Shown in pieces: positions 9,615-36,517 of a stretch of DNA of 36,835 nt. Below the pieces are notes generated by a model that ran no database searches, was not told the DNA's origin, and saw nothing but the letters and a program-made list of their open reading frames with translations. Positions within the stretch are counted from its first letter, which is position 1, and each line of letters begins with the position of its first letter. The translations under genes were made by a program, and so were the position numbers. Where the stretch lies: positions 1-36,835 of the forward strand of contig NZ_JAIPUS010000028.1 of NCBI RefSeq assembly GCF_020055675.1, read 5' to 3'. The stretch comes from Marivita sp. (GTDB lineage: Bacteria > Pseudomonadota > Alphaproteobacteria > Rhodobacterales > Rhodobacteraceae).

Positions 9615-11042
9615 ATGGCGGATCTTCCGTTGATCACCCCTGTTCTTTTGTGCGGCGGCTCCGGCACCCGGCTCTGGCCGCTGTCGCGCAAGAGCTATCC
9701 CAAGCAGTTTGCCCAGTTCCTTGGCGATGAGAGCCTGTTTCAGGAAGCCGCCAAACGGGTCTCCGGCGAGGGCTATGCCGCGCCCCTGGCCGTCACCGGC
9801 GAGGGCTTCCGCTTTATCGTGGCCGAACAGCTGGATCATTGCGGCATCCGGCCTGCAGGAATCCTGATCGAGCCCGAAGGGCGCAACACCGCGCCCGCCG
9901 CCGCCGCCGCCGCGCTGCACCTGGCGCAGACCGATCCCGGTGCCTTGATGCTTCTGGTGCCTGCCGATCACGCCATTCCCGATCCGCACGCCTTCCGCGA
10001 CGCGGTGATGACCGGCGCGCCGGCTGCCGCGCAAGGCCAGATCGTGACCTTTGGCATTCAGCCGACGCGGGCCGAGACAGGATATGGCTGGCTCGAGGCC
10101 GGACAAGAGACACATCGGGGTGTGAACGCGCTGGAGCGCTTCATCGAAAAGCCCGACGCGGCAAAGGCCGAGACGCTGTTTGCCGATGATCGCTACCTCT
10201 GGAACGCGGGGCTGTTCCTGGCGCGCGCCGACACGCTGTTGGCCGCATTCGACGCGCACGCGCCCGACATCCTGAAAGACACTCGTGCCGCGATGGCGGC
10301 GGCGGAACCCGACCTCGGCTTCCTGCGCATCGACGCAGATCTCTGGGGGCAGGTGCGTGCAGAATCGCTCGATTACGCGGTGATGGAGCAGGCGCAGAAT
10401 GTCAGCGTCGTGCGATTCTGCGGCGGTTGGTCCGATCTGGGATCGTGGGAAGCGGTCTGGCAGGAAAGCCCGCAGGATGGCAGGGGCAACGCGCTGGCGG
10501 GCCTGTCCACGGCGATCGAGTGCGAGAACACGCTCTTGCGCTCGGAAAGTGACGAGATCGAACTGGTGGGCATCGGGCTCAAGAACGTGGTCGCCGTGGC
10601 GATGCGCGACGCGGTGCTGGTGGCCGATATGACCGACAGCCAGAGCGTCCGCCGCGCGGTTGACATGCTGAAACAGCGAGACGCCAAACAGGCGGTGCAA
10701 TTGCCGGTCGATTACCGCCCCTGGGGCTGGTTCGAGACGCTGATCCTCAAGGACCGGTTCCAGGTCAAACGCATCCATGTGCATCCCGGCGCATCGCTGT
10801 CCTTGCAAAGCCATGTGCATCGGTCCGAACACTGGATCGTGGTCGCGGGGACCGCCAGAATCACGGTGGATAACGAGGTGCGCCTGCTGTCAGAGAACCA
10901 GTCGGTCTATATCCCGCTGGGCGCGGTGCACCGGATGGAAAACCCCGGCAAGGTGCCGATGGTGCTGATCGAGGTGCAGACCGGACCCTATCTGGGCGAG
11001 GATGACATCATCCGCTACGAGGATGTCTATTCGCGCAGTTGA
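9615..11042 (+). CDS. manC: Mannose-1-phosphate guanylyltransferase / mannose-6-phosphate isomerase
   Basis: This bifunctional enzyme isomerises fructose 6-phosphate to mannose 6-phosphate and makes GDP-mannose from mannose 1-phosphate. The 475 residues are full length. The N-terminal nucleotidyltransferase has LCGGSGTRLWPLSRKSYPKQF (residues 12-32), VPADHAI and FIEKPD. The C-terminal cupin isomerase has RPWGWFETL, FQVKRIHVHPGASLSLQSH and HRSEHWIVVAGTA. It is the last gene of the plus-strand run after gmd. It converges on the phosphomannomutase gene, with a 20-bp perfect palindrome between them. Confidence 0.97.
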   Translation: MADLPLITPVLLCGGSGTRLWPLSRKSYPKQFAQFLGDESLFQEAAKRVSGEGYAAPLAVTGEGFRFIVAEQLDHCGIRPAGILIEPEGRNTAPAAAAAALHLAQTDPGALMLLVPADHAIPDPHAFRDAVMTGAPAAAQGQIVTFGIQPTRAETGYGWLEAGQETHRGVNALERFIEKPDAAKAETLFADDRYLWNAGLFLARADTLLAAFDAHAPDILKDTRAAMAAAEPDLGFLRIDADLWGQVRAESLDYAVMEQAQNVSVVRFCGGWSDLGSWEAVWQESPQDGRGNALAGLSTAIECENTLLRSESDEIELVGIGLKNVVAVAMRDAVLVADMTDSQSVRRAVDMLKQRDAKQAVQLPVDYRPWGWFETLILKDRFQVKRIHVHPGASLSLQSHVHRSEHWIVVAGTARITVDNEVRLLSENQSVYIPLGAVHRMENPGKVPMVLIEVQTGPYLGEDDIIRYEDVYSRS

Positions 11043-14157: not shown

Positions 14158-15060
14158 TCAGCCCTCGTTCAGCAGGCTGAGCAGATACGCGCCGTAGCCG
14201 TTCTTGCCGAACATCCCGGCACGCTGGCGCAGCGCCAGGGCGTCGATCCACCCCTGGGCAAAGGCGATCTCGTCGGGGCTGCCGATCTGCTGGCCCTGGC
14301 GATCACTCAGCGTGCGTACGAAGTTTCCGGCATCGAGCAGGGATCCATGTGTGCCGGTATCGAGCCAGGCATAGCCCCGCCCCATCAGTTCCACGCTCAA
14401 TTGCCCGTCGGCGAGGTAGCTTTCCAGAAGCGCCGTGATCTCCAGCTCGCCGCGCTCTGACGGCTGCACCTGCGCCGCGCGGGCAGGCGCCGTGCCGTCG
14501 AGGAAATAGAGCCCTGTGACCGCGTAGGGCGACGGTGCCTTGGCGGGTTTCTCGATGATCTGGCGCACTGTGCCGCCTTCGCCGAAATCCACCACGCCAT
14601 AGCGTTCGGGATCGGCGACGCGGTAGCCAAAGACGGTGCCGCCGGTATGCGCTGCATCGGCGCTGGCCAGAACCTCTGGCAAGCCGTGGCCGAAGAAGAT
14701 GTTGTCGCCCAGCACCATGGCGGAGGGGCTGCCATCAAGGAAATCCTCGGCCAGCAGGTAGGCCTGCGCCAGACCGTCGGGTGAGGGCTGTTCGAGGAAG
14801 GTGAACGTCAACCCCCATTGCGCCCCGTCGCCCAGAAGGTGCCGGAACTGGTCCTGGTCCTGGGGCGTGGTGATGATCGCGATCTCGCGGATGCCGGCCA
14901 GCATCAGCACCGACAGCGGATAGTAGATCATCGGCTTGTCGTAGAGCGGCAAGAGCTGTTTGCTCAGCCCCATGGTGATCGGGTACAGCCGGGTGCCCGA
15001 CCCGCCTGCGAGGATGATGCCCTTGCGCGCGGATCGTGCCGCATGTTCATGTCTGGTCAC
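14158..15060 (-). CDS. rmlA: Glucose-1-phosphate thymidylyltransferase
   Basis: RmlA makes dTDP-glucose from dTTP and glucose 1-phosphate, the first step to dTDP-L-rhamnose. The best start is the GTG at 15060, which overlaps the rmlD stop as GTGA (15057-15060) and gives 300 residues. Signatures are KGIILAGGSGTRLYPITMG (residues 13-31), SKQLLPLYDKPMIYYPLS, GDNIFFGHGL, VFGYRVADPERYGVV, IIEKPAKAPS and GRGYAWLDTGTHGSLLDA, all near identical to RmlA/RfbA. It is the last gene of the repA-rmlCBDA run. Confidence 0.97.
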   Translation of the reverse strand: MTRHEHAARSARKGIILAGGSGTRLYPITMGLSKQLLPLYDKPMIYYPLSVLMLAGIREIAIITTPQDQDQFRHLLGDGAQWGLTFTFLEQPSPDGLAQAYLLAEDFLDGSPSAMVLGDNIFFGHGLPEVLASADAAHTGGTVFGYRVADPERYGVVDFGEGGTVRQIIEKPAKAPSPYAVTGLYFLDGTAPARAAQVQPSERGELEITALLESYLADGQLSVELMGRGYAWLDTGTHGSLLDAGNFVRTLSDRQGQQIGSPDEIAFAQGWIDALALRQRAGMFGKNGYGAYLLSLLNEG

Positions 15061-15923
15061 AGGGCCAACTCCTTCAATATGGCGCGCAGGCCGTCCTGCC
15101 AGTCGGCAGGCATAATTCCGAAATCCGACTGGAGTTTGGCGCAATCAAGCCGGGAATTGAGCGGGCGTGTTGCCGGGGTCGGGTAGTCCGACGACGGGAT
15201 GCCCGTGACCGTCACGTCCCGACCAGCCTGCGCGAAGATCTCGCGGGCGAACCCGGCCCAGCTGGTCTGCGGCGCGCCGGCGTAGTGATAGGTGCCGCCG
15301 GTCGCGGCCGAAGGCGCGCCACCAAACATGCCGCCGGCGCGCATCATTTGCGCCAATGTCAGCAATGTCGCGGCGATATCGGCGGCTGGGGTCGGCCCAC
15401 CGATCTGGTCGTCCACGATGTTCAGCACGTCGCGGGTTTCAGACAGCCGCAGCATGGTCTTGACGAAATTCGTCCCATGGGCCGAGACCACCCAAGAGCA
15501 GCGCAGGATGATGTGCCGCGCCCCCGACGCGCGCACCGCCAGTTCGCCCGCCAGCTTGGTGCGGCCATAGGCGTTTTGCGGTGCAACAGGGTCTGTTTCG
15601 CACCACGGACGCTGCCCGCTGCCCTCGAAGACGTAATCGGTCGAGACATGCAGGAACGGGATGTCCAGATGCGCACAGGCCGCCGCCATCGCACCGGGGG
15701 CGGCGGCGTTGATCGTCTGGGCCAGCGCCTCTTCTTCTTCCGCCCTGTCGACGGCCGTATGGGCGGCGGCGTTGATGACGACGCGGGGGGTCAGGTCGGC
15801 GATGGTGGCGGCGCAGCCCTGCGGGTCCGACAGATCCGCCTGATCACGGCCAAGGGCGATGACATCCGCCTGCCGCTGGAGTTCCGTGGCCACCTGCCCG
15901 GTCTTGCCGAAGACGAGGATCAT
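15057..15923 (-). CDS. rmlD: dTDP-4-dehydrorhamnose reductase
   Basis: RmlD reduces dTDP-4-dehydro-L-rhamnose to dTDP-L-rhamnose with NAD(P)H. The 288-residue product starts at MILVFGKTGQVATEL, whose FGKTGQVA is the nucleotide-binding loop. The open frame to 15980 runs back through an intergenic hairpin and is not family-like. Other signatures are VINAAAHTAVDRAE (near residue 62), STDYVFEG (near 103), YGRTKLAGE with the catalytic Tyr/Lys (near 127) and RCSWVVSAHGTNFVKTML. A REP-like hairpin element lies between rmlB and this gene. Confidence 0.96.
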   Translation of the reverse strand: MILVFGKTGQVATELQRQADVIALGRDQADLSDPQGCAATIADLTPRVVINAAAHTAVDRAEEEEALAQTINAAAPGAMAAACAHLDIPFLHVSTDYVFEGSGQRPWCETDPVAPQNAYGRTKLAGELAVRASGARHIILRCSWVVSAHGTNFVKTMLRLSETRDVLNIVDDQIGGPTPAADIAATLLTLAQMMRAGGMFGGAPSAATGGTYHYAGAPQTSWAGFAREIFAQAGRDVTVTGIPSSDYPTPATRPLNSRLDCAKLQSDFGIMPADWQDGLRAILKELAL

Positions 15924-15933
15924 GGCTGCTGCC

Positions 15934-15987
15934 GGGAGCGAGGGGCCAGCCCCTCGCGCTCCCCGGAGTTTGCTTGGCAAGATGAAG
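15934..15987. repeat. REP-like hairpin element between rmlB and rmlD
   Basis: GCGAGGGGC (15938-15946) and GCCCCTCGC (15949-15957) form a strong stem, extended by outer GGGA and TCCC. CCCCGGAGTTTGCTTGGCAAGATGAAG follows in two parts (15961-15987). The tail pattern 'GGCAAGATGAAG' next to a GC hairpin is a widespread intergenic repeat of Rhodobacterales as I know it. A second, inverted copy lies at 20543-20588 between parA and parB. Within the operon it may adjust the relative amounts of mRNA. Confidence 0.65.
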
Positions 15988-15993
15988 GAGCGG

Positions 15994-17034
15994 TCATTCC
16001 GTCGCTCCCAACCGTTCCCCTACACCGTCGCGGCCCTGCAAGACGCGCCACCAGTCCTCGTTGTCGAGATACCAGCGCACTGTGCGCCGCAGCCCTTCCT
16101 CCAGCGTCACCGAGGGCCGCCAGCCCAGCTCACCGCGCATCCGAGACGGGTCGATCGCATAGCGCAGGTCATGCCCGGGACGGTCGGTGACGAAACTGAT
16201 CAGCCGGTCATGCGGTGCGCCTGCGGGCACCATCTCGTCCATCAGGGCGCAGATCATGCGGACAAGGTCGATATTGCGCGCCTCGGCCTCGCCGCCGATA
16301 TTGTAGGACCGGCCCACCGCGCCGCGCTGAACCACGGTCAGCAGCGCATCGGCATGGTCCTCGACATAGAGCCAGTCGCGCACGTTCTCGCCCTGCCCGT
16401 AGACCGGGATCGGCTTGCCCGCCAGCGCGTTCAGGATCACAACCGGGATCAGCTTTTCCGGGAAATGATAGGGCCCGTAATTGTTCGAGCAGTTCGACAG
16501 CACCACGGGCAGCCCATAGGTATGCCACCACGCCCGCACCAGGTGGTCGCTCGCCGCTTTTGACGCCGAATAGGGCGAACGTGGATCGTAGGGCGTGTCC
16601 TCGGTGAACTGGCCAGTCGCAGCCAGAGACCCGAAGACCTCGTCGGTCGAGATGTGGTGAAAGCGGAAACCCTCGGGCCGGCCGTGCGCGTCCCAGTAGC
16701 GCCGCGCCGCCTGCAAGAGCGTGTAGGTGCCCACCACATTGGTGTCGATGAAGGCCCCGGGTCCGTCGATCGACCGGTCGACGTGGGATTCGGCCGCCAG
16801 GTGCATCACCGCTTGCGGTTCAGATTCGGCCAAGACAGTCTCCAGCAGGGCGGTATCGCGGATATCGCCCTGCACGAAGCTGTAGCCCGGATGATCCGCC
16901 ACCACGGCCACGTTGTCGAGGCAGGCCGCATAGGTCAGCGCGTCGAGGTTGACGACCTCGTGCCCCTGCCCGATCGCCCGCCGCACCACCGCCGATCCGA
17001 TGAACCCGGCCCCGCCTGTTACCAGAAGTTTCAC
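15994..17034 (-). CDS. rmlB: dTDP-glucose 4,6-dehydratase
   Basis: RmlB converts dTDP-glucose to dTDP-4-keto-6-deoxyglucose. The 346 residues are full length. They show the Rossmann [11 protein letters not shown] (residues 7-17), [12 protein letters not shown] (near 80), STDEVFGSL with the catalytic Asp-Glu (near 130), the YxxxK of [17 protein letters not shown] (near 155) and [17 protein letters not shown]. The start is a GTG at 17034 that overlaps the rmlC stop as GTGA (17031-17034). Such tight overlap indicates translational coupling with rmlC. Confidence 0.97.
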
Positions 17035-17594
17035 GTTTCACTCCACTCAAACGGGCTATCGATCTCCGCCAGCACCGGGGCCTCGGCATCCTTGTTCGAC
17101 AGGATCGGATCGCAGGTCAAATCCCAGTCGATGCCGGCACTGTCCCAGCGCAGCGCGCCTTCCGCCTCGGGCGCATAGTAGCCGGTGCATTTATAGACGA
17201 TCTCCGTCTCCGGCGCACGCGTCACGAACCCGTGGGCAAAGCCCTCGGGCACCCAGAGTTGCCGCCCGTTCTCTGCGGTCAGCTCGACACCAGCCCACTG
17301 CCCGTAGGTCGGAGACCCGCGCCGGATATCCACGGCCACGTCAAACAGGGCCCCGCGCCCGCAGCGCACCAGCTTGCCCTGGCCGTGCGGCGGCGCCTGG
17401 TAATGCAGCCCGCGCAGCGTACCGGCTGTCGCGGACAGCGAATGATTGTCCTGCACGAAGTCCGGGTCCACCCCGGTCGCCCCGGCAAACCGCGCCCGGT
17501 TCCATGTCTCCGCGAAAAACCCGCGGGCATCGCCAAAGCGCCGCGGCGTCAGGATCACAAGCCCCGCAAGGGCGGTTGTCTCTACCTCCAGCAT
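17031..17594 (-). CDS. rmlC: dTDP-4-dehydrorhamnose 3,5-epimerase
   Basis: RmlC epimerises C3 and C5 of dTDP-4-keto-6-deoxyglucose, giving the L-rhamno configuration. The 187-residue cupin starts at [17 protein letters not shown]. Signatures are [33 protein letters not shown] (with the catalytic His of RGLHYQ, near residue 63), [28 protein letters not shown] and [11 protein letters not shown]. Its ATG shares the A of the repA stop codon (TGATG reading on the minus strand, 17592-17596). The first rhamnose gene is therefore translationally linked to the replication initiator gene. Confidence 0.97.
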
Positions 17595-18598
17595 CAGCCG
17601 TCCTTTTGTGTCTTCACCCAGGCGAGGAAGGCCCGGTCGGGGCTGGTCAGCCTTTTGCGCCCGGTCTCGTCCCACCAGGCCAGCCAACGCGCCTGCAGGC
17701 CGTAGACATCCATGCCGGGCTTCAGCACCTTCGCCGCCTCCAGCGTCTCCTGCCGCAAGATCGGGGCATCCATTGGGCGCGGTTTGGCCCGCCGCGTGAC
17801 AACCAGCACATCGCCCGCGCGTTCGGACAGGGCATAATCGGGCAGATGATCGCTGGCGATCATCCTGCGGAGTGCGGCGCGGAACACCCGCACGGGCGCG
17901 GCCGAGCCTGCCTTGCGGTGCAGCACCGGAATCGAGATTTCCCATTGCGCCTGTCGCCCGCAATGCTTGCGCGCCAGCTCGTAGACCCGCCGTTCGAGCG
18001 GTTTGCGCAGCCGGAAATAGTCGCGCGACAGGGTCAGCACCGACCGGGCACAGACCGCCCTGTAAAGCCAGTCCGACAGGGTCACCGTCACGCTGATCAT
18101 CCGTCCCCCCCTGGACCGCCGCAGGATCTCCCAGCTCTCGATCAGGCCAAAACCCCGCGTTGCCTCGACCCCGCCGGTCTCGATGTTGGTGGTGATCCGC
18201 GTACCCGCCAGCCGCTCGAATCCCTCGCGCAACCGCGCATAGCTGTCACCCCCGGTGTCACGGTTGGTCGCCACAAGCAGATCATGCGCGCGCAGGGTCA
18301 GGGTCCGTCCCACCTCACGGCCCGCATTCATAGCCGCCACCAGCTGGCTGATGCAGTAGATCAGGATATCCTTGTCATGCAGTGTCGCCCGTCCCCGCAC
18401 CGATGGCGTGACCTGCACCTCGACCCCGTTATGGGCATAGGACAGAACACGGGTATCGGGCCGCGTGGACAGCGAAAAGATCGGATGTTCCATCGATGCC
18501 AGGTCATCCTTGGGACTGGCATCGAAAAAGTCGCAGACGAAAAAATCGCCTGTCGGATGTCGGTCGGGCAACAGCCCGCCTCTGCTCGTCGCGCCCAT
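17594..18598 (-). CDS. repA: Replication initiator RepA (RepA-I type, RPA family)
   Basis: RepA of this family (PF10134-type 'replication initiator protein A') binds the plasmid origin and starts replication. The 334-residue protein has the hallmarks of roseobacter RepA replicases: LPDRHPTGDFFVCD (10-23), MEHPIFSLSTRPDTRV, DKDILIYCISQLVAAMN, RAHDLLVATNRDTGGDSYARL, TTNIETGG, GFGLIESWEI, LTLSRDYFRLRKPLERRVYELARKHCG and a late ASDHLPDYAL. The ATG at 18598 sits just before the conserved N terminus and no better start exists. Upstream lie a DnaA box and three iterons; downstream its stop overlaps rmlC. Presence next to parAB and rml genes matches the compatibility group carried by roseobacter biofilm plasmids. 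Confidence 0.95.
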   Translation of the reverse strand: MGATSRGGLLPDRHPTGDFFVCDFFDASPKDDLASMEHPIFSLSTRPDTRVLSYAHNGVEVQVTPSVRGRATLHDKDILIYCISQLVAAMNAGREVGRTLTLRAHDLLVATNRDTGGDSYARLREGFERLAGTRITTNIETGGVEATRGFGLIESWEILRRSRGGRMISVTVTLSDWLYRAVCARSVLTLSRDYFRLRKPLERRVYELARKHCGRQAQWEISIPVLHRKAGSAAPVRVFRAALRRMIASDHLPDYALSERAGDVLVVTRRAKPRPMDAPILRQETLEAAKVLKPGMDVYGLQARWLAWWDETGRKRLTSPDRAFLAWVKTQKDG

Positions 18599-18909: not shown

Positions 18910-19051
18910 CATCAGGAACATGCCCCTGCACTGGTATTTCAACCCCCTGAATTTGCTTGGGAAGATGCACAATGTAGCGGTTTTACTTCCATGTACGGGT
19001 TTTTCTGGTAGTATGCCGGAAAGAGCGCACATCAAGAGGCGCGATCCAGCC

Positions 19052-20452
19052 ATGGCAGAGCACCACATGACATCGGAACAGGCCCTTCCTCCCTATTTCA
19101 ACATCAATCCCAACACCGCACTTGGCGGGCTGGGAGCCCCCACCACGACGGAGGATTTCGCGCGGATCGCCCGCGCCTGCGAAGCGGGCCGCGCCGATCT
19201 GGCAAGCCGGGGTCTGGAAGACAGTGGCGGGCGCAGTTTGCGCCTCTTCTCCACCTGGGAAATCACCCGCTACCTGATCCCGGTCGCCACGGGGCATTTC
19301 CGCCGCGTGCTGAAACAGAATCCCGTCCTGCCGCAAGGCCGCAGCGAAACGACGGGCGGCGCCAAGTGGTTCACCTTCGACGAGGTGCTGCGCCTGCGCG
19401 CGCATTTCGCCGCCGAAGGCTCCAAGACCAAGGAATACCTGCCCTACCGCCCCAAGGGCCAGCCGGCCAAACTCGCCGCGGTGGCCAATTTCAAGGGCGG
19501 GGTCGGCAAGACCTCGACAGCGGCGCATCTCGCCATGTCCGCGGCGCTCGACGGCTACAAGGTGCTGGTGATCGATCTCGACAGCCAGGGCTCCATGACC
19601 TCGATCTTCGGCGGCACCGTCGCCGATGAATGGCAGACCGTCTTCCCGCTTCTGGCGCGCCATCATGCCCGCCACCTGCAGGGCGAAAACCAGCGCCGCA
19701 TGGACCGGGGCGAAGCGCCCATGCCGCTCGACGACACGCTGTCGGATGCGCTCACCGCCCGCAGCGAAACGCTGATCCAGAAAACCCACTGGCCCAATAT
19801 CGACCTGATCGGCGCGCAGCTGAACCTTTACTGGGCCGAGTTCCAGATCCCCGTCTGGCGCATGGGATCGCGCGGCTGGAAGCTCTGGGACGCGCTCACC
19901 GACTCGCTCTCCGAAGACGGCATCCTGGACCAATACGACGTGATCTTCCTCGACACCCCACCCGCCCTTGGCTACCTCACCATCAACGGGCTGGCGGCCT
20001 CGGACATCCTGTTGGTCCCATTGGGTGCGTCCTTCCTGGAATTTGACTCGACGGGGCGATTCTTCGACATGCTGCACGCCACCTTCGGTTCCATCGAGGA
20101 GGCCGAGAACATGGCCGCCCGCGCGCTTGGCCGCGACGGGCTGGCTTTCCAGTGGGACGCGGTGCGCGCCGTGGTCACCCGCTTCGATCCGGCGCAACAG
20201 GCCGAACTCGCCGCGCTGATGCAGGCCTATCTCGGCCCCACCCTGTCGCCGCACCGTCAGGGCTTTACCGCGCTGATCGGCCAGGCCGGTGAGCAGGTGC
20301 AGGGCATCTACGAGGCCGATTACCGCGATTTCAACCGTGAAACCTATGTGCGCGGCCGCGAAACGTTCGACGCCACCTACGCCGCCTTCAAGCAGCTTCT
20401 CATCGGCAGCTGGCACCGTGACGTGCAGGCGGCGCAACAGGCTGCGCAATGA
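19052..20452 (+). CDS. parA: Plasmid partition ATPase ParA
   Basis: ParA uses ATP-dependent nucleoid binding to move and separate plasmid copies. The 466-residue product starts at MAEHHMTSEQ, with AGAGG about 12 nt upstream; the frame is open to 18920, but that part lies in the regulatory region. Residues ~65-125 (FSTWEITRYLIPVATGHFRRVLKQN ... WFTFDEVLRLRAHF) look like the N-terminal DNA-binding part of large type Ia ParAs, which often autoregulate. The ATPase domain has the deviant Walker A KGGVGKTST (148-156), VIDLDSQGSMTSIFGG and VIFLDTPPALGYLTINGLAASD. parB follows after a 208-bp spacer. Confidence 0.95.
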   Translation: MAEHHMTSEQALPPYFNINPNTALGGLGAPTTTEDFARIARACEAGRADLASRGLEDSGGRSLRLFSTWEITRYLIPVATGHFRRVLKQNPVLPQGRSETTGGAKWFTFDEVLRLRAHFAAEGSKTKEYLPYRPKGQPAKLAAVANFKGGVGKTSTAAHLAMSAALDGYKVLVIDLDSQGSMTSIFGGTVADEWQTVFPLLARHHARHLQGENQRRMDRGEAPMPLDDTLSDALTARSETLIQKTHWPNIDLIGAQLNLYWAEFQIPVWRMGSRGWKLWDALTDSLSEDGILDQYDVIFLDTPPALGYLTINGLAASDILLVPLGASFLEFDSTGRFFDMLHATFGSIEEAENMAARALGRDGLAFQWDAVRAVVTRFDPAQQAELAALMQAYLGPTLSPHRQGFTALIGQAGEQVQGIYEADYRDFNRETYVRGRETFDATYAAFKQLLIGSWHRDVQAAQQAAQ

Positions 20453-20660
20453 GACCTGGGGCGCCATGCGGCAAACGCTCGGGGGGGCTGTGCGCGCACC
20501 GAACGGGTGGAGTCCCCGTGGTCCGCGCCGCGACACACCGGTCTTTCTTCTTGCCTGAAATATCCCGGGGTTTGGGGCAGAGCCCCAATCAACGCGCGCC
20601 ATATTTACCCGGCAGTCATCATGCGCCCCAACCCTCGCGACATCATGCATGGAGGCCCGC
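20453..20660. repeat. parA-parB spacer with an inverted copy of the REP-like element
   Basis: The spacer has no supported gene. At 20543-20588 it reads CTTCTTGCCTGAAATATCCC, then GGGGT, then a hairpin TTGGGGC (20572-20578) / GCCCCAA (20582-20588). Its reverse complement aligns with the element at 15934-15987 (GC hairpin, CCCCGG, TTTG, GGCAAGA-GAAG). GGAGG (20651-20655) is the parB ribosome-binding site. An insertion of such a repeat inside a partition operon may lower ParB relative to ParA. Confidence 0.6.
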
Positions 20661-21689
20661 ATGGCCAAACGCAAACGCCTGACACCGCCGAATCCCGCCT
20701 ATCTCGACAGCCCGTCCGCGCTTGAGACAAAGGCGATGTTCTCGCCCCCGAGGGCGGCGCCGATCGCCGATGTGGCGCGCGACGCCTCGGCCTCGGCGGC
20801 GCTGGACGAATTGTCCGACACGATGACGCGCGCCCGCGACGAGGGCCGCATGGTGGTGCAGCTGCCGCTCGACCAGATCGAGGTGGATCACCTTGTCCGC
20901 GACCGCATCGTGGTGGACGAGGGCGAAATGCGCACCCTGGTGGCGTCCCTGCGCAGCCGTGGCCAGCAGACACCGATCGAGGTGGTTCAGCTGGGTGATG
21001 GCCGTTATGGGCTGATCTCGGGGTGGCGGCGCTGCCGCGCGCTGGCGCAGATCGCCGAAGAGGACCGCGCGGGCGCACCCACCGTGCTGGCCCTGCTCCG
21101 TCGCCCGGAAGAGGCGTCTGACGCCTATCTCGCGATGGTCGAGGAAAACGAGATCCGTGTCGACCTGAGTTACTTCGAACGCGCCAGAATCGTCTCCAAG
21201 GCGGTGGAAGAAGGCGTGTTCGCGCTGGAGCGCACGGCCTTGCAGGAGCTTTTCCGCTCCGCCAGCCGCGCCAAGCGGTCGAAGATCGGCAGCTTCCTTC
21301 CCGTGGTGCGCGCGCTTGACGGTGCGCTGCGCTTTCCGCAAGCGCTCAGCGAGCGGTTGGGTCTGAGCCTGGCGCAGGCAATCACCCGGGACGATGGCTT
21401 CGCCGCAGCGCTGCAAGCAAGGCTGGCGGAAACGCAGCCCGACACGCCAGAGGCGGAAACAGCCCTTCTGACAAAGATGCTGACGCAGAAGGCACAGTCT
21501 CTGAACAGCGGTTCAGAGACGAAACCAGACCCGTCTGAAAAGGCGTATCGCGACGAAACGGTAGGCGCATTCACGCTGCGCCGGCACGCCGATGGCACGC
21601 TGTCGATCCTTGGCGCAGCCTGGCCGAAACGCATGGAGTCGGATCTGCTGATGCTTCTCAAGGCGGCCTCGGACAGGGTTGCAAGATAG
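20661..21689 (+). CDS. parB: Plasmid partition protein ParB
   Basis: ParB binds parS and is moved by ParA. The start at MAKRKRLTPPNPAYL (20661) is favoured over the in-frame ATG at 20649 because GGAGG lies 6 nt upstream; the product has 342 residues. The N-terminal ParB/Spo0J nuclease-like domain shows LPLDQIEVDHLVRDR, GWRRCRA (CTP-binding C-motif 1, near residue 120) and VEENEIRVDLSYFERA (C-motif 2, near 160). These suggest a CTP-dependent clamp. The helix-turn-helix region follows (FRSASRAKRSKIGSFLPVVRAL). The stop codon lies within the first bases of a parS-like repeat. Confidence 0.95.
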   Translation: MAKRKRLTPPNPAYLDSPSALETKAMFSPPRAAPIADVARDASASAALDELSDTMTRARDEGRMVVQLPLDQIEVDHLVRDRIVVDEGEMRTLVASLRSRGQQTPIEVVQLGDGRYGLISGWRRCRALAQIAEEDRAGAPTVLALLRRPEEASDAYLAMVEENEIRVDLSYFERARIVSKAVEEGVFALERTALQELFRSASRAKRSKIGSFLPVVRALDGALRFPQALSERLGLSLAQAITRDDGFAAALQARLAETQPDTPEAETALLTKMLTQKAQSLNSGSETKPDPSEKAYRDETVGAFTLRRHADGTLSILGAAWPKRMESDLLMLLKAASDRVAR

Positions 21690-21745
21690 GTCCGAAGTGG
21701 ACCTATTGTTTCGCGTGCGAAACATTGGGACCGATACGGACCTAA
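21688..21745. promoter_or_regulatory. parS-like centromere site, copy 1
   Basis: The core TGTTTCGCGTGCGAAACA (21707-21724) has perfect 8-bp arms around GT. It resembles the chromosomal parS consensus TGTTTCACGTGAAACA but is 2 bp longer. It is flanked by AGGTCC-N5-GGACCT on the left (21688-21704) and GACCG/CGGACC on the right (21729-21743). The 58-bp unit overlaps the parB stop and recurs at 24195-24252, which supports a protein-bound centromere rather than a chance palindrome. Confidence 0.8.
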
Positions 21746-21771
21746 TTTCACCCCGCTGAATTTGGCCACGG

Positions 21772-21786
21772 TTAAGCCCGCGTTAA
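21772..21786. promoter_or_regulatory. CtrA-type box before the fusion glycosyltransferase gene
   Basis: TTAAGCCCGCGTTAA followed by CC is a perfect TTAA-N7-TTAA with a GC-only spacer, so it is not a by-product of local AT richness. It is 53-67 nt upstream of the ATG at 21839, where CtrA-activated promoters usually carry the box. No strong -10 is visible downstream. Confidence 0.55.
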
Positions 21787-21838
21787 CCATCTCCGAGGCA
21801 ATCTGGCCGGTGATTGGATTGTTCCGAAAGCCGTGCCC

Positions 21839-24175
21839 ATGTTCCTCCGCCTGCGGCAGCTCTATCGCCGCTATGCCACGCATCACCTGGCGCTGTCCTT
21901 CGGTGTCGTCCAGATCGCGCAGGCGCCCCCGATCGCCGTCGACTTGCGCCAGGGGCGCGTCTGCGTGGACGCGGACAGCGTCGTGCTCGAGCATGGCGGT
22001 GCCCGCGCTGACGGCCGAGCGCCCTCCCTGCCGCATGTGCATGGGGCGGGCTTGCGGATTTCGCTGCGAACCGGGGGCGACGCGGTGACCATCCCTGCCC
22101 TGTCACGTGTTGATCTGGCGCGGGGCCATCTCGCGCTCTGGCCCGGCCTGCTGGCGCGGGGGCTCCGCATCCTGCCGCTGTTGCCGCGGTGTCGCGCGCC
22201 GCATATTCGCGCCCGCGCCGTGCGGGAACTGGGGCTTGCCGCGGATCTGCCCGCCCCGATGCTGGACCTGCCGCGTGCGGACACATCCCTGTTTCGCATC
22301 GCGACCGGCGTCACGATCATTCTGCCGGTGCATAATGCGGCTCCGCATGTGGGGCGCTGCCTGCACCGGATCGAGACGATGACCGACCTGCCCTGGCGGC
22401 TGCTCATCGTCGAGGATGGCTCCAGCGATCCCGCGATCCGCCCCATGCTGCGCGACTGGGTGGCCCGGCGGGACCGGGCGCAGTTGATTTGCCACGACAG
22501 CGCCCGTGGCTTTGCCGCGTCGGTCAATTCTGCCCTGGCGGCGCTCGGCCCTGTCACCGCGCCGGTCGTGCTGCTCAATTCCGATGTTACCCTGCCCAAG
22601 GGGTGGGCCGGGCGGCTGATCGCCCCGATCCTCGCGGATGGCACCGTGGCCAGCGTGACACCGTTGTCGAACGAGGGCGAGTTGATGGGCGCGCCCCATG
22701 CCTGCGCCGGTGTTGCGCTGCGAAAGGGCGAAGCGGATGCGGTGGATGCGGCGCTCGCGCCCTTGGCGCGTCACAGGAGCCTGCCGATACTGCCCACGGG
22801 CTCGGGCTTTTGCATGGCGCTTGGTCCGGAGTGGCTGGCCGAGGTGCCACGGTTCGATGACCGCTTTGGCCGCGGCTATGGCGAAGAAGTGGATTGGTGC
22901 CAGCGCACGCGCGCCCTGGGCGGCCGGCACCTGTGCCAGACCGGTCTTTTCGTGGGCCATGTGGGCGCGGCGAGTTTCGGAGCGCAACAGAGACAAATCC
23001 TGCGCGATCGCGCCGCTCCGGTGCTGTCACGCCGCTGGCCGCGCTTCGACGGGGACGTGGCGCAGGCGAAGGCACGGGACCCGGCAGCAGGCGAGCGGTT
23101 GCGCGCCGGTCTGCTCTGGGCCAGGGCGCGGTTGAACGGGGCGCCCCTGCCCGTCTATGTCGCCCATTCGCTCGGCGGTGGCGTGGCCCGTTGGCTGGAG
23201 CAAAAGCTGCACGGTCACGAGCTGGCCGTGGTGCTGCGGCTGGGCGGTCCGCTGCGCTGGCAGCTCGAGCTGCACAGCAAGGCTGGTGTCACGCGCGGCG
23301 CGACGGCGCGGTTCGCCGATATTCAGACCCTGTTAGGCCATGCCGGGCCGCGAACCGTGATCTATGCCTGCGCCGTGGGAGACCCCGCGCCAGAGGAGAT
23401 CCCGCGTCGCCTGCTCGACCTCTGCGCCGGCGGGCAGGGTCTGGAAATGATGTTCCACGATTATTTCCCGCTGAACCGCGATTACACGTGGCGCAGCGCC
23501 CCCGACCCCGAGTGGCAGTCGCTCTGGCGGGTGGCGCTGGACCGGGCGGACCATCTGACGGTGTTCTCCGATGCGGCCCGCCGGATCGTGGCGGAGACCC
23601 ATCCCGATCTCGCGGGGAAACTCCGCCTGCGCCCGCATGGACCCCTGGGTGCGGTGCCGCGCCTGTCGCCTGCGCCCGCGGGGCGTATGGTGATTGGCGT
23701 GCCGGGACACCTCAATGCGCCGAAGGGCGCGGCGGTGGTGGCGGATCTCGCGCGGGTCCTTGCCGACACGGGAGAGGCGCGGCTGGTGGTGCTGGGCGAG
23801 GTGGCCCCGGAGTGTCCTTTGCCGCGATCGGTGAGCGTCGTGGGCGGCTACCGGCTGAGCGACCTGCCGCAGCTGGTGGCACGACACGGCATCGGCGCGT
23901 GGCTGATCCCGTCGCTCTGGCCTGAAACCTTTTCCTATGTCACGCAGGAATCGCTGGCCACCGGGCTGCCCTGTCTTGGCTTCGACCTGGGCGGGCAGGG
24001 GGATGCGTTGCGCAAATCGGGCCACGGGCGGGTTGTTGCGCTGCGAAACGACGGGTCGGTGGACCGGGAGGCGCTTCTGTCTGCGCTGCGCAGCCTGCCG
24101 GGATGGCCCGCGCAAGACCGCGAAACAGGCTCTGTCGTGCTGCGAAACCTGTTTGCGCGCCGGGTGCAGGCATGA
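21839..24175 (+). CDS. Bifunctional glycosyltransferase, GT2-GT4 fusion
   Basis: The 778-residue product (ATG 21839; an in-frame GTG is 6 nt upstream) joins two transferases. An N-terminal ~145-residue part is not recognised. A GT2 domain follows (about 155-400): TIILPVHNAAPHVGRCL, LIVEDGSSDP, ARGFAASVNSAL, VVLLNSDVTLPKGW with the DXD-type site, and YGEEVDWCQR. A GT-B/GT4-like half follows (about 435-778): VYVAHSLGGGVARWLEQ, MMFHDYFPL, MVIGVPGHLNAPKGAAVVADLAR, VVGGYRLSDLPQLV and WPETFSYVTQESLATGLPCLGFDLGG. One polypeptide could add two sugars in sequence. The gene lies exactly between two parS-like sites, apart from other polysaccharide genes, so it may be a later insertion. Confidence 0.88.
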   Translation: MFLRLRQLYRRYATHHLALSFGVVQIAQAPPIAVDLRQGRVCVDADSVVLEHGGARADGRAPSLPHVHGAGLRISLRTGGDAVTIPALSRVDLARGHLALWPGLLARGLRILPLLPRCRAPHIRARAVRELGLAADLPAPMLDLPRADTSLFRIATGVTIILPVHNAAPHVGRCLHRIETMTDLPWRLLIVEDGSSDPAIRPMLRDWVARRDRAQLICHDSARGFAASVNSALAALGPVTAPVVLLNSDVTLPKGWAGRLIAPILADGTVASVTPLSNEGELMGAPHACAGVALRKGEADAVDAALAPLARHRSLPILPTGSGFCMALGPEWLAEVPRFDDRFGRGYGEEVDWCQRTRALGGRHLCQTGLFVGHVGAASFGAQQRQILRDRAAPVLSRRWPRFDGDVAQAKARDPAAGERLRAGLLWARARLNGAPLPVYVAHSLGGGVARWLEQKLHGHELAVVLRLGGPLRWQLELHSKAGVTRGATARFADIQTLLGHAGPRTVIYACAVGDPAPEEIPRRLLDLCAGGQGLEMMFHDYFPLNRDYTWRSAPDPEWQSLWRVALDRADHLTVFSDAARRIVAETHPDLAGKLRLRPHGPLGAVPRLSPAPAGRMVIGVPGHLNAPKGAAVVADLARVLADTGEARLVVLGEVAPECPLPRSVSVVGGYRLSDLPQLVARHGIGAWLIPSLWPETFSYVTQESLATGLPCLGFDLGGQGDALRKSGHGRVVALRNDGSVDREALLSALRSLPGWPAQDRETGSVVLRNLFARRVQA

Positions 24176-24194
24176 TCCTGGCGCGTCTCGAACC

Positions 24195-24252
24195 AGGTCC
24201 GGATCGGACCTATTGTTTCGCGCGCGAAACATTGGGGCCGCTTCGGATCTAT
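24195..24252. promoter_or_regulatory. parS-like centromere site, copy 2
   Basis: The core TGTTTCGCGCGCGAAACA (24214-24231) is a perfect 18-bp palindrome. The flanks align base for base with copy 1 over 58 bp, including AGGTCCG, GGACCTAT before the core and TTGGG-CCG after it. The right flank is somewhat diverged (CTTCGGATCTAT). It lies between the convergent ends of the fusion glycosyltransferase gene and kpsM. Confidence 0.8.
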
Positions 24253-24255
24253 CTG

Positions 24256-25035
24256 TCAGAGATCGCTGAGGATGTCGCGGTGCCAGCGCATCAATCCGAT
24301 CCCGGCCAGCAGCGCCGTGCCCAGCCCCAGGGCCAGCACGAAAACCGGGCTGATATAGCCCGCGTCATAGCCGGGATAGATCCCGTTCCGGATATGCCCC
24401 ACCACGTGCACCAGCGGGTTCCACCACAGCAGGTCCCGCCAAGGCAGGGGGACGTTTTCAAAGGTAAAGAACACCCCCGAGACCAGGAACATCGGCCGCA
24501 TGGCGATCGACCAGATCCGCTGCCAGAGCGGCACGAGCCCGATGAGCAGGCAATTCAGCGCCCCGACCCCCAGGGCAAGCACCGCCAGCAGCCCCGCTGC
24601 CTGCGCCAGGATGGCGATATCAGGCGTCGCCCGTGTTTCGCCGAGAAACAGGATTCCGCCCAGAAGCAGGCTTGCCACCGCGACCTGGGTCAGCACCGCC
24701 AGCAGGAACCGCGCCAGCAGTGCATCGAACACACCCACCGCCGGATAGGCGAAAAGCGGACGCGAGAAGTTCAGCGCCTGCGCCAGTTTGCCGGTGATTT
24801 CGGTGAACGCCAGGAAGGGCAGCAGCCCGGTGGCATAAAACAGCGGAAAACTGACCCCGAGCGCCGGCGCGTGAAAGCTGATGGCAAAGATCGCCGACAA
24901 GAGCGCGATGCCCGCCAGGGGTTCGGCCACGGCCCAGAGATAGCCACCCGGCATGCGACCCTGCGTGGTGGCCATCTCGCGCAGCATGAGCGCGCCCACC
25001 GCCCGCCAGGGGCCGGGGTGGGCGCTGTGGCTCAT
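24256..25035 (-). CDS. kpsM: Polysaccharide ABC exporter, permease (KpsM-like)
   Basis: The inner-membrane permease of an ABC-2 type exporter for capsular polysaccharide or O-antigen. The 259-residue product starts at MSHSAHPGPWRAVGALMLREM; a TTG at 25053 is a less likely alternative. It shows LMLREMATTQGRMPGGYLWAVAEPL near the N terminus, then about six hydrophobic segments (for example LAGIALLSAIFAISF, FPLFYATGLLPFLAF, ILAQAAGLLAVLALGVGAL, FVLALGLGTALLAGIGLM) and the family's PLPWRDLLWWNPLVHVVGHIRNGIYPGY. It is transcribed away from the KpsE- and KpsT-like partners, with only 47 bp between the starts. Confidence 0.88.
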   Translation of the reverse strand: MSHSAHPGPWRAVGALMLREMATTQGRMPGGYLWAVAEPLAGIALLSAIFAISFHAPALGVSFPLFYATGLLPFLAFTEITGKLAQALNFSRPLFAYPAVGVFDALLARFLLAVLTQVAVASLLLGGILFLGETRATPDIAILAQAAGLLAVLALGVGALNCLLIGLVPLWQRIWSIAMRPMFLVSGVFFTFENVPLPWRDLLWWNPLVHVVGHIRNGIYPGYDAGYISPVFVLALGLGTALLAGIGLMRWHRDILSDL

Positions 25036-25104
25036 GGATGTGTTTCGCTGCAAGAAACCCGCATAAGAGGAATTATTATACAGTGACTCGCCTTAAGGCA
25101 ATCC
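25036..25104. promoter_or_regulatory. Compact divergent promoter region of kpsM and the KpsE-like gene
   Basis: A perfect -10 hexamer, TATAAT on the minus strand (25075-25080), points toward kpsM; a TTGCCT -35 candidate (25096-25101) has a short 15-bp spacer and lies inside the KpsE-like gene. GCCTTAAGGC (25090-25099) is a perfect 10-bp palindrome overlapping it. AGAGGA (25066-25071) is the likely ribosome-binding site of the plus-strand gene. One regulator bound here could control both halves of the exporter. Confidence 0.4.
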
Positions 25105-26303
25105 CTCGCGATCCGGCCGCGCCGTTTTATGCCACTGCCCTGGCCTCGGACCCGGTGGCAGCGCTGCCGCCGGTGCCGCGGGCCGGATGGGCGCGGCGGC
25201 ATGTGGCGCTGGCGCTGTCTTTCGGGCTTTGCGTGGTGCTGCCGGTGTTGCTGAGCGCCGTGTATCTTTGGGGGCGCGCGGCGGATCAATACGCCTCGGA
25301 GGCCGGCTTTGCCGTGCGGCACGAGGTCGGCGCGGCCGCGCTCGCGGGGCCGGGCGGCCCGGCGGGGCTTTCGGGCAGCAGCACGCGCGATACCGATATT
25401 CTTTACGAATACCTGTCGTCGCGGCGTCTCGTGGCCGAACTGGAGGCGGACCTGGGCTTGTCGGATCTCTGGTCGAAACCCGGATCCAAGGCGCCGCAAG
25501 GCGTAACAGACCCTGTTTTTGCCTTTCCACGGGCCGGATCGGCCGAGGATCTGCATCGCTACTGGTCCCGCCGTGTCGCGGTATCGCATGACAGCCGGGC
25601 TGGGCTGATCGCGCTGCGGGTGACGGGGTTTGCCCCCGAAGACGCCCAGAGGATCACCGCCGCCATCGTGGCCCGGGCCACGGCGCTGATCAACGAGTTG
25701 AGCGACGTGGCGCAGGCTGATGTGCTGCGCGATGCGGCGGCCGAACTGGAGACGGCCGAGGCGCGGCTGCGGCGGGCCCGCGCCGCGATCACGGTGTTTC
25801 GCAACCAGCATCAGCTGGTCGATCCGGCGGTCGATCTCCAGGCGCGGGCCCGCCTGCTGGGCACTTTGCAGGGGCAACTGGCCGAGGCGCTGATCGGGCT
25901 GGACCTGCTGCGCGAGGCGACGCGCGCGGGCGATCCGCGCATCGCGCAGGGCGCGCGCCGGGTGGCGGTGATCGAATCGCGGATCGCCGCCGAGCGCGCC
26001 AAGCTGGGACTGAAGGGGGATGGCGATGCCTTTGCCAGCGTCGTGGGCGCCTATGAGGTGTTGATCGCGGACCGGGATTTCGCCGAGCGGGCCTATGCGG
26101 CGGCGCGCAGCACCCATGACATGGCCCAGGCCGAGGCGCGGCGGCAAAGCCGTTACCTGGCCGCCTGGCAACAGCCGACGCTGCCGCAATCCTCGCAATA
26201 TCCGCGGCGCGGGCGCTTGATCGCGTTGATCGCGGGCGGTGCGATTCTGCTCTGGGGGCTGGCCGCGCTGTCGGTCTATGCCGCGCTGGACCGGCGCGGA
26301 TGA
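25083..26303 (+). CDS. kpsE: Capsule polysaccharide export inner-membrane protein (KpsE-like, PCP family)
   Basis: KpsE-type polysaccharide co-polymerases span inner membrane and periplasm and link the ABC exporter to the outer-membrane channel. The start is taken as GTG 25083 (MTRLKAIPRDPAAPF), giving 406 residues; the frame opens at 25038 but overlaps the promoter. A transmembrane segment at about 38-60 (VALALSFGLCVVLPVLLSAVYLWG) is followed by a periplasmic part with long heptad-like helices (ELETAEARLRRARAAITVFRNQHQ, ARSTHDMAQAEARRQSRYLA), the PQSSQYPRR loop and a second transmembrane segment near the C terminus (LIALIAGGAILLWGLAALSVYAAL). This two-TM coiled-coil layout is diagnostic for the family. 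Its stop overlaps the kpsT start (ATGA). Confidence 0.88.
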   Translation: MTRLKAIPRDPAAPFYATALASDPVAALPPVPRAGWARRHVALALSFGLCVVLPVLLSAVYLWGRAADQYASEAGFAVRHEVGAAALAGPGGPAGLSGSSTRDTDILYEYLSSRRLVAELEADLGLSDLWSKPGSKAPQGVTDPVFAFPRAGSAEDLHRYWSRRVAVSHDSRAGLIALRVTGFAPEDAQRITAAIVARATALINELSDVAQADVLRDAAAELETAEARLRRARAAITVFRNQHQLVDPAVDLQARARLLGTLQGQLAEALIGLDLLREATRAGDPRIAQGARRVAVIESRIAAERAKLGLKGDGDAFASVVGAYEVLIADRDFAERAYAAARSTHDMAQAEARRQSRYLAAWQQPTLPQSSQYPRRGRLIALIAGGAILLWGLAALSVYAALDRRG

Positions 26304-26953
26304 TCGTGCTGGACGATCTTTGGAAACGCTTTCCCGGCGGGCCGCCGGTGGCGCGGGGGATCAACGCCACCTTCCCCCGGGGCCGCGCCACGGCGCTTCT
26401 GGGGTGCAATGGCGCGGGCAAGTCGTCGCTTCTGGCGCTGATCGCGGGCAGCCTGCGCCCCGATGCGGGCCGGGTGATCCGGCAGGGGCGCGTGTCGTGG
26501 CCGGTGGGCTTTGCCGGAGCCTTCCACCCCGATCTGACAGGCGCACAGAACACTCGCTTCGTCGCGCGGGTCTACGGTGTGGACAGCCGTGCACTGTCGG
26601 CTTTCGTGCGCGACGTGTCGGGGCTGGGGGACGCGATGCGCCAGCCGGTGCGGCGCTACTCCAGCGGAATGCGGGCGCGGCTGGGGTTCGCGATTTCCAT
26701 GGGGGTGCCGTTTGACATGTATCTCGTGGACGAGGTCACGGCGGTGGGCGATGCCGCGTTTCGCCGCGAAACCTCCGCGCTTCTGAAGGCGCGGCTGGGG
26801 CAGGCGGGGGCCATCGTGGTCAGCCATGCCCCGGCGCAGCTGCGCGACCTGTGCACGGCGGGGGCGGTGCTGGAGAATGGGCGTCTGCGCCTGTTCGACG
26901 ATCTGGAGGCGGCGATCGCCCGCTACCAGGCACAGATGCAGCGGCTGGCGTGA
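26300..26953 (+). CDS. kpsT: Polysaccharide ABC exporter, ATPase (KpsT-like)
   Basis: The nucleotide-binding subunit that powers export with the KpsM-like permease. The 217 residues match KpsT (about 220), without the extra C-terminal carbohydrate-binding domain of Wzt proteins. Walker A is GCNGAGKSS (35-43), the ABC signature RRYSSGMRARLGFA is near 120, Walker B and the catalytic Glu are MYLVDEVTAVGD near 140, and the switch His is in VVSHAP. The VGFAGAFHPDLTGAQNTRFVARVYG segment is typical of this subfamily. The start overlaps the KpsE-like stop (26300-26303). Confidence 0.94.
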   Translation: MIVLDDLWKRFPGGPPVARGINATFPRGRATALLGCNGAGKSSLLALIAGSLRPDAGRVIRQGRVSWPVGFAGAFHPDLTGAQNTRFVARVYGVDSRALSAFVRDVSGLGDAMRQPVRRYSSGMRARLGFAISMGVPFDMYLVDEVTAVGDAAFRRETSALLKARLGQAGAIVVSHAPAQLRDLCTAGAVLENGRLRLFDDLEAAIARYQAQMQRLA

Positions 26954-35566: not shown

Positions 35567-36502
35567 TCAAGCGTAATCTTCAGACCATTTCCGCCCGTCT
35601 CTGAGAAGTGCGTTTGCGACAACGACAAGCTTTCGCATGATGGCGGTCAGCGCGACTTTGGGCGGTTTTCCGGCTTTCACCAGCTGGTCGTATTTCCTCT
35701 TTGCGCTCAGGTCGTGACGGATCACGCACAGTGCGGGCATATACATAGCGCGGCGGAAGAATGCGCGCCCGCCTTGGATGCGTTCCTTGCCCTGCCATTT
35801 TCCTGATTGGCGTGAGATCGGAGCCAATCCGGCCAGACATGCAGCCTGTTTTCCGCTCATGGTGCCCAGTTCGGGCATTTCGATCAGCATCGAAAATGCG
35901 GTGACCGTTGAGATGCCGGGAATACTTGTCAGGATGTCGAACTGCGCCATCAGCTGAGCGTCTTGCGCGACGAGTTCCAGGATGGCCTTATCAATCTGAT
36001 CAAGGTGTTTTTCAACTTGGGTCAGCCGCTCTTTCAGCTGGCGCTTCAGCAGCTTTTGTGTGGTTGTTTGCATCCGTGTGCGCACCGTGACGCGATCTTT
36101 GATTAACCCACGCCTGGCCGTCATCATCTCTCTGAGAATGTTGAGATATTCAGCTTTAGGCGCTTGCGGTTCAAGCTGCAAAATGGTGCCCATCTTGGCG
36201 AGTATCGCTGCATCGACCCGATCGGTCTTCGCAAGCGTCCCCGTTGCTTCGGCAAACCTACGGGCTTGTCGTGGGTTCACCTTGGAATATGGAACAGCCC
36301 CTTCCGACAGGCTGTTTTCCAGTCGCCTGTGGTACACGCCGGATGCCTCGAACACGACCAAACCGGCGCTGCTGATCTCTATCCATCGATGCAACGCGCG
36401 CAGGCCTCTGCCATCATTGGCAAACTGCCTGTGTTCAGCTCGCGCCATGCTGTAGGCATCAAGCCAGTCTTTTGATACGTCGATTCCAATGGTATCATTC
36501 AT
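35567..36502 (-). CDS. IS110 family transposase (DEDD recombinase)
   Basis: This recombinase inserts its element with the help of an element-encoded bridge RNA in the IS110 group. The start MNDTIGIDVSKDWLDAYSM (36502) has GAGG upstream; a GTG at 36517 adds five residues. The product has 311 residues, full length for the family. The RuvC-like DEDD domain shows GIDVSKD, VVFEASGVYHR and AKTDRVDA; a coiled-coil region follows (KLLKRQLKERLTQVEKHLDQID). The C-terminal Transposase_20 domain has SIPGISTVTAFSMLIEMPEL and ACLAGLAPISRQSGKWQGKERI with the catalytic Ser. No frameshift is seen, so it may be active. Confidence 0.94.
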   Translation of the reverse strand: MNDTIGIDVSKDWLDAYSMARAEHRQFANDGRGLRALHRWIEISSAGLVVFEASGVYHRRLENSLSEGAVPYSKVNPRQARRFAEATGTLAKTDRVDAAILAKMGTILQLEPQAPKAEYLNILREMMTARRGLIKDRVTVRTRMQTTTQKLLKRQLKERLTQVEKHLDQIDKAILELVAQDAQLMAQFDILTSIPGISTVTAFSMLIEMPELGTMSGKQAACLAGLAPISRQSGKWQGKERIQGGRAFFRRAMYMPALCVIRHDLSAKRKYDQLVKAGKPPKVALTAIMRKLVVVANALLRDGRKWSEDYA

Positions 36503-36517
36503 CTGTCTTTTCCTCAC

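Follow-up and report, generated by a model that had tools for sequence, protein, structure and literature searches.

What are two near-identical palindromic units doing on either side of a glycosyltransferase gene, immediately downstream of a plasmid parB? This is the question raised by a 36,835-nucleotide stretch of Marivita sp. DNA (contig NZ_JAIPUS010000028.1; hereafter the window), in which the units, each with an 18-bp core, had been predicted to be the centromere (parS) sites of the adjacent ParB. Comparisons across the family and genus (G000 denotes the genome of the window, other G numbers family genomes, C a contig and L a fetched locus) lead us to conclude that this ParB very probably has both plasmid units as its parS, a reading which agrees with the original prediction and rests on the recurrence of the core beside parB throughout the family. 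The unit is not plasmid-specific, and the dispersed chromosomal copies described below pose a second question, namely which protein reads them.

The two units and the adjoining parB

Unit 1 (21688-21745, forward strand), the putative parS site 1, shares with parB the last two bases of its stop codon (21687-21689), as had been claimed, and has at 21707-21724 the core palindrome TGTTTCGCGTGCGAAACA with a central GT on the forward strand. Unit 2 (24195-24252, forward strand), the putative parS site 2, lies between the convergent glycosyltransferase and kpsM-like genes, and its core TGTTTCGCGCGCGAAACA (24214-24231, forward strand) is a perfect palindrome. In both, the layout is an arm AGGTCCGnnnCGGACC (19 nt including the spacer), the core TGTTTCGCRYGCGAAACA and a further arm. 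A repeat search recovers 21688-21744 and 24195-24251 as a two-copy family of 57 nt with 86% identity, bearing out the predicted pair of near-identical units of about 58 bp; the units also align in the inverted orientation over 60 nt with 83% identity, and each whole unit is thus roughly palindromic. The presence of the 18-bp palindrome in each is likewise upheld, with TGTTTCGCGNGCGAAACA yielding, at up to three mismatches, four strand-matches at two places in the window as against a mean of 0.11 and a maximum of 2 in 100 dinucleotide shuffles of it. The core is, as predicted, two bases longer than the chromosomal parS: the host 16-mer TGTTTCACGTGAAACA is found as two exact copies and one copy with a single mismatch at G000:C8, 144-147 kb. 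With their 18-bp length and different inner bases, and the 16-mer located there, the units do not correspond to chromosomal parS.

Evidence for a parS function comes from the family-wide association of the core with parB. ParB homologues (E<=1e-40) were recovered in 138 of 394 family genomes and the exact 18-mer in 88, with both present in 73 (a count that includes sites adjoining parB), the 18-mer alone in 15, ParB alone in 65 and neither in 241. When 20 of the 65 neighbourhoods with ParB alone were fetched, GTTTCGCRYGCGAAAC was found intact in 16 and as a variant in the other 4, for a chance expectation from composition of about 3e-6 per stretch of neighbourhood size; together with its presence in 7/7 close plasmids, this is the conserved palindrome near parB that typifies a ParABS system. 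Two of the four variant neighbourhoods have both half-sites altered together, L227 (G130) with two copies of TGTTCCGCGCGCGGAACA and L225 (G097) with CTTTCGCGCGCGAAAG, and these double changes are a natural test of ParB specificity. Further, copies were surveyed in 20 genomes chosen for having few contigs, 16 with ParB and 4 without a hit at the above threshold. None of the latter contains the core 16-mer, and 13 of the 16 ParB-bearing genomes have at most one listed core copy off the parB contig (4 of the 5 copies in G094 being listed, and the parB contig of G148 being a 2.2-Mb contig that also bears the chromosomal ParB). The remaining three (G035, G075 and G149) have at least 10 chromosomal core copies.

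The protein itself fits such a role. ParB (20661-21689, forward strand) was assigned the start MAKRKRL, which aligns with the starts picked in 23 relatives, the longest open reading frame beginning at 20649. It displays GWRR and EENEIR motifs and a SopB-like DNA-binding region, with G121, R123, R124, E161-E164 and R166 invariant in 23 sequences. The alignment comprised 23 of the 26 frames found and the window protein, one sequence with an undefined base being omitted before folding. The Pfam ParB_N score falls 0.9 bit under the cut-off; however the combination of a CTPase-type N-domain, for which CTP binding is predicted, and a DNA-binding domain appears to be that of a ParABS ParB. In the predicted structure (one model from 23 sequences, with a mean predicted local distance difference test score of 86), the N-domain matches ParB/Noc structures and the middle region matches SopB-DNA less strongly, while the top Foldseek match is a Noc. 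Upstream lies parA (18920-20452, forward strand, with the putative start of the longest open reading frame), which encodes a Walker-type ATPase scoring 98.8 bits for AAA_31 (cut-off 27) and, under the cut-off, for the NCBIfam partition_RepA model. Hence, the two units would be copies of the parS of the plasmid's own ParABS system, wherein a ParB dimer could recognize the two GTTTCGC half-sites of the core, close as a CTP-dependent clamp and slide onto the flanking DNA, including the glycosyltransferase gene, with ParA moving the resulting ParB-DNA complex. The same half-sites may serve a further ParB, given that in L267 (G149:C4) another ParB_N protein (a 396-residue open frame, C4:86044) lies between two GTTTCGCATGCGAAAC sites, at 2376 and 4993 with differing flanks.

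Dispersed chromosomal copies and their possible readers

A search for the 18-mer beyond the plasmid, which had been proposed as a check, gave a mixed outcome: it recurs beside parB in relatives, as expected of a partition site, but also at seven further places in the host genome. All nine places, i.e., the two in the window, one on C31 and six on chromosome-type contigs (so called because their translations read as those of lpd, priA and ftsK, among others), have at least one recognizable arm. C31 is a contig of 4.4 kb, whose counterpart in G371 (L194) has a gene resembling the window RPA gene nearby. Core copies are present in 17/17 Marivita genomes, at 9-18 each. The original prediction had itself treated a spread of the unit through chromosomes as telling against a centromere, and such a spread is indeed seen in this genome and across the genus; it does not overturn the parS reading because of the 13 ParB-bearing genomes noted above, where off-contig copies number one at most.

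In five Marivita genomes, 59 loci outside the bracket (57 along with C31 and its counterpart) form 17 positional groups, of which groups 1-6 are present in 5/5 genomes, 7-9 in four, 10-12 in three, two in two and three in a single genome; the identity of the core among the grouped loci is by construction, since the loci were fetched for an exact match. More telling, each of the four other genomes has exact counterparts of all six chromosomal sites of the window's genome. Groups 7-12 and 14 have no exact site in this genome and a search allowing up to two mismatches adds none, indicating some turnover of sites. The DNA around the conserved sites is 69-78% identical in five of the six groups present in 5/5 genomes, and an ungapped comparison gives about 50% agreement for the bases lying 30-60 nt beyond the core. 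The chromosomal set is hence real, dispersed and largely conserved within the genus, its members being mostly intergenic and of the same type as the plasmid units. Additionally, about 40 kb separate the near-identical units L186 and L187 (G371:C10), each of which matches the surroundings of the same G000 site; this suggests a duplicated stretch that kept both copies.

Beyond Marivita, the sites of G035, G149 and G075 fit a uniform distribution of distance from the origin (Kolmogorov-Smirnov p of 0.97, 0.68 and 0.27, respectively), with the nearest lying 127-157 kb from the origin-proximal parS in these three chromosomes. Accordingly, a role as an origin or terminus macrodomain site was set aside; the scatter over the chromosome is rather like that of Noc-binding sites, and G035 shows no terminus gap. 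Site positions mostly differ between genera. The lpd-pepA region does hold a site in both Marivita and G035, and a rough estimate suggests that a few such coincidences are to be expected. Two further observations concern individual loci: in L156, from a bryozoan-associated Rhodobacteraceae, the 18-mer at about position 3283 lies in the middle of a perfect palindrome spanning 86 bp or more, which may be an assembly effect; and L097, L098, L147 and L041 (from Mameliella, Aestuariivita and two other genomes) have in common, by eye, a left flank of the form TTAACGnAAn...TTGAt...GAAgag, perhaps representing another lineage family of the dispersed 18-mer.

We tentatively propose that several Rhodobacterales lineages possess a second, origin-independent ParB-type network of about 6-17 fixed chromosomal units of plasmid-type parS, often with flanks or centres in common with the RepA-type plasmid of the lineage, and that a plasmid or host protein of the ParB family loads both sets, thereby coupling their positioning or segregation; we see this as a possible interpretation, somewhat short of an even chance. 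As to which protein this might be, the best-surviving option, a real contender even if not quite an even bet, is that the chromosomal copies are read by a host-encoded protein whose specificity the plasmid ParB shares or took over, an option which concerns the chromosomal set only and does not conflict with a parS role of the plasmid copies. It accounts well for the genus-wide distribution: an orthologous ParB (75-100% identity) occurs in only 6/17 Marivita genomes, and the number of sites besides the two bracket sites is equivalent in genomes possessing it (mean 11.3, n=6) and in those lacking it (mean 11.9, n=11, counting G406, which has a 42% identical homologue; Mann-Whitney p=0.58). Thus, G394 and G395 are without an orthologous ParB, yet have 14 and 13 sites, arguing against a purely plasmid-serving role. 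The retention of the six groups in 5/5 species compared, with the core intact amid surroundings of only partial identity, points the same way, as does G279, a member of another genus with dispersed sites and with ParB matches no stronger than E=3e-6. However, plasmids may be absent from draft assemblies or lost in culture, and in the tree from the cleaned alignment G394 groups with the ParB-bearing G396, so that the absences of ParB appear independent and could reflect recent loss or incomplete assembly. Further, in a Pfam ParB_N search of 18 genomes, the five genus members among them were found to share no chromosomal ParB paralogue beyond the ordinary ParB. That ordinary chromosomal ParB is itself not favoured as the reader, in that its DNA-binding region looks alike whether dispersed sites are present (10 genomes) or absent (8 genomes), and all of the 8 genomes searched have its own 16-mer cluster. 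A 35%-identical ParB homologue at G000:C67:4933-5541, on a 150-kb contig that also bears a dispersed 18-mer, is a possible second reader in this strain; besides the plasmid ParB of G371, no match of comparable strength was seen in G371, G394 or G395.

The joint shift of core centres on plasmid and chromosome also speaks against a host reader, and it supports the option that the plasmid ParB docks at the chromosomal copies, coupling plasmid and chromosome segregation, which we consider somewhat less likely than a host reader but still a live option. The core is identical on both replicons. In G402, the centre is AT in both plasmid sites and in 2/3 chromosomal sites seen (one from the genus-wide set of loci and two from a further 400 kb), as against 1/67 elsewhere in the genus (Fisher p=0.004); G035 has AT in the site beside parB and in 8/17 chromosomal sites; and in G149 and G075 every one of the 10 chromosomal cores, like the two on the parB contig, is centred on AC or GT. 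Such common centres could, however, stem from DNA exchange between units. The flanks present a similarly divided picture. Plasmid flanks match the chromosomal sites of their own lineage best in Marivita (identity of 0.63) and in G035 (0.61, as compared with 0.26-0.35 against other lineages), and weakly so in G092 (0.50). In contrast, G293 and G075 match another lineage equally well or better (0.62 to its own chromosome and 0.64 to G075 for the former; 0.54 to its own and 0.61 to Marivita for the latter), and G149, G331 and G015 are at about background (0.38-0.40). Arm-type flanks are common to Marivita, G293, G075 and G279, pairs among which range from 0.42 to 0.64, while pairs across flank families range from 0.26 to 0.48. 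The retention of sites in genus genomes without this ParB is a further difficulty for docking.

The bracketed glycosyltransferase gene and its plasmid

The order parB, site, glycosyltransferase gene, site, kpsM is kept in 7/7 related plasmids, six from the same genus (the window, G371, G396, G401, G402 and G407) along with that of G223, with a core spacing of 2,491-2,565 bp and glycosyltransferases 66-74% identical to that of the window. In G067, a more distant relative whose ParB is 55-64% identical, kpsM and parB lie about 90 bp apart with a single site and no glycosyltransferase gene between them. Among 12 parB stretches from further genera (G250 to G149), with one to six sites near parB (including one variant, and reaching as many as six around parB in G331), no match to the window glycosyltransferase was found. 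The original prediction left open whether the gene was inserted into an existing array or the site was duplicated with it. This is now partly settled: because G067 has one site and no such gene, the glycosyltransferase gene was probably inserted into the parB-kpsM junction together with the second unit in the ancestor of this plasmid group, a direction that G067 supplies as the one outgroup. The proposed comparison, in which plasmids lacking the gene would show whether the two sites adjoin, found such a plasmid with one site in place of two.

The conservation of the bracket might alternatively be taken to mean that ParB, loaded at both sites, silences or tunes the enclosed gene. Other plasmid ParBs are known to spread and to silence genes, the glycosyltransferase gene is the sole gene between the sites, site 1 is about 110 bp upstream of its start and, as noted, the arrangement persists in all seven plasmids. 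We regard this as unlikely, since parB in other genera commonly has at least two sites nearby that do not enclose this gene, and the spacing of the bracket may merely reflect the insertion. Least probable by far is that the units are a dispersed repeat, akin to repetitive extragenic palindromic sequences or miniature inverted-repeat transposable elements, that landed by chance beside parB without being a centromere: its dispersed, mostly intergenic copies, several flank families and differing positions between genera would be in keeping with this, but the scarcity of copies off the parB contig in most ParB-bearing genomes, the various flanks of parB-adjacent cores in other genera (implying that the core and not a repeat is conserved there) and the many positions common within the genus, mostly shared with some turnover, are not. 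A role of the arms in RNA or a cruciform was likewise rejected as the main reading. Although 5 or more of the 7 pairs are present in 96/144 arms (3.5 pairs being expected of shuffled arms), no covarying pair exceeded shuffles in 40 distinct 19-nt arms, the best pair in 13 distinct 21-nt arms was equalled by 48/1000 shuffles, a weak signal, and Rfam gave no match in the window.

In terms of gene content, the sites are surrounded by an RPA-type initiator, ParA, ParB, the GT2-GT4-like glycosyltransferase and kpsM/kpsE/kpsT-like export genes. The replication initiator (17594-18598, reverse strand), termed RepA-I in the original prediction, was identified as RPA by a Pfam profile search; with such an initiator beside parA on the opposite strand, the plasmid is not a repABC replicon. 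The glycosyltransferase gene (21833-24175, forward strand, first ATG at 21839) encodes a GT2 domain scoring 46.6 bits against a Pfam cut-off of 23.3 and a GT4-type domain at 26.3 bits, just under the cut-off of 27, so the predicted fusion is supported for its first domain and nearly so for its second. The kpsM-like gene (24256-25053, reverse strand) encodes an ABC-2 permease, convergent with the glycosyltransferase gene across unit 2. Reading of the plasmid translations also points to genes resembling those for 3-deoxy-D-manno-octulosonate synthesis (kdsA/kdsB/kpsF), a manC-like gene, a dTDP-rhamnose-like set and capsule export genes, located at 188-2804, 9615-11042, 14158-17963 and 24256-26953; among these, profile searches back the export genes only. 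To judge by its translations, then, the window represents a capsule or exopolysaccharide plasmid. An IS110-family transposase lies at 35567-36517, close to the right end of the window.

Comparison with known partition and positioning systems

These findings make GTTTCGCRYGCGAAAC a testable parS motif for a ParB family with hits in over a third of the family genomes surveyed (138/394). The retention of a plasmid-type centromere sequence at fixed chromosomal places across the species of a genus runs counter to expectation: placed on the wrong replicon, a centromere ought to compete with the plasmid to which it belongs. Should one ParB read both, plasmid inheritance would be tied to chromosome organization in these marine bacteria; a host protein as reader of the chromosomal sites would instead imply a chromosome-wide DNA-binding system yet to be found. 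Among the open-licence full texts searched, neither the core sequence as text nor the combination of Marivita, plasmid and parB found a match, and among the open-licence matches listed, no title or abstract start describes a plasmid-type parS dispersed on a chromosome.

Of the known systems, the sopC centromere of plasmid F, bound by SopB, is a tandem array, whereas here two sites lie 2.5 kb apart. The repABC parS of Rhodobacterales, as presented in the part of PMC9040568 consulted, resembles the present sites in being a palindrome near the partition genes that often occurs as multiple copies and sometimes lies a few kb off; unlike them, it goes with RepC and a different core, is almost always in or near the operon, and is not described in that part as dispersed on the chromosome. 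Noc, judging from the portion of PMC4331003 consulted, offers the precedent of a protein related to ParB whose sites are spread around the chromosome, but the sole candidate reader identified here is a plasmid protein that 11/17 genus genomes are without, and the ParB_N search above revealed no chromosomal counterpart common to the genus. Finally, the chromosomal parS TGTTTCACGTGAAACA shares with the 18-mer the outer half-sites GTTTC/GAAAC and a protein of the ParB/Noc type; the 18-mer is set apart by its two additional base pairs and other inner bases, and, while the host 16-mer forms a separate cluster on one contig, sites of the 18-bp type are dispersed and, in the three chromosomes for which the distance was measured, at least 127 kb away from it.

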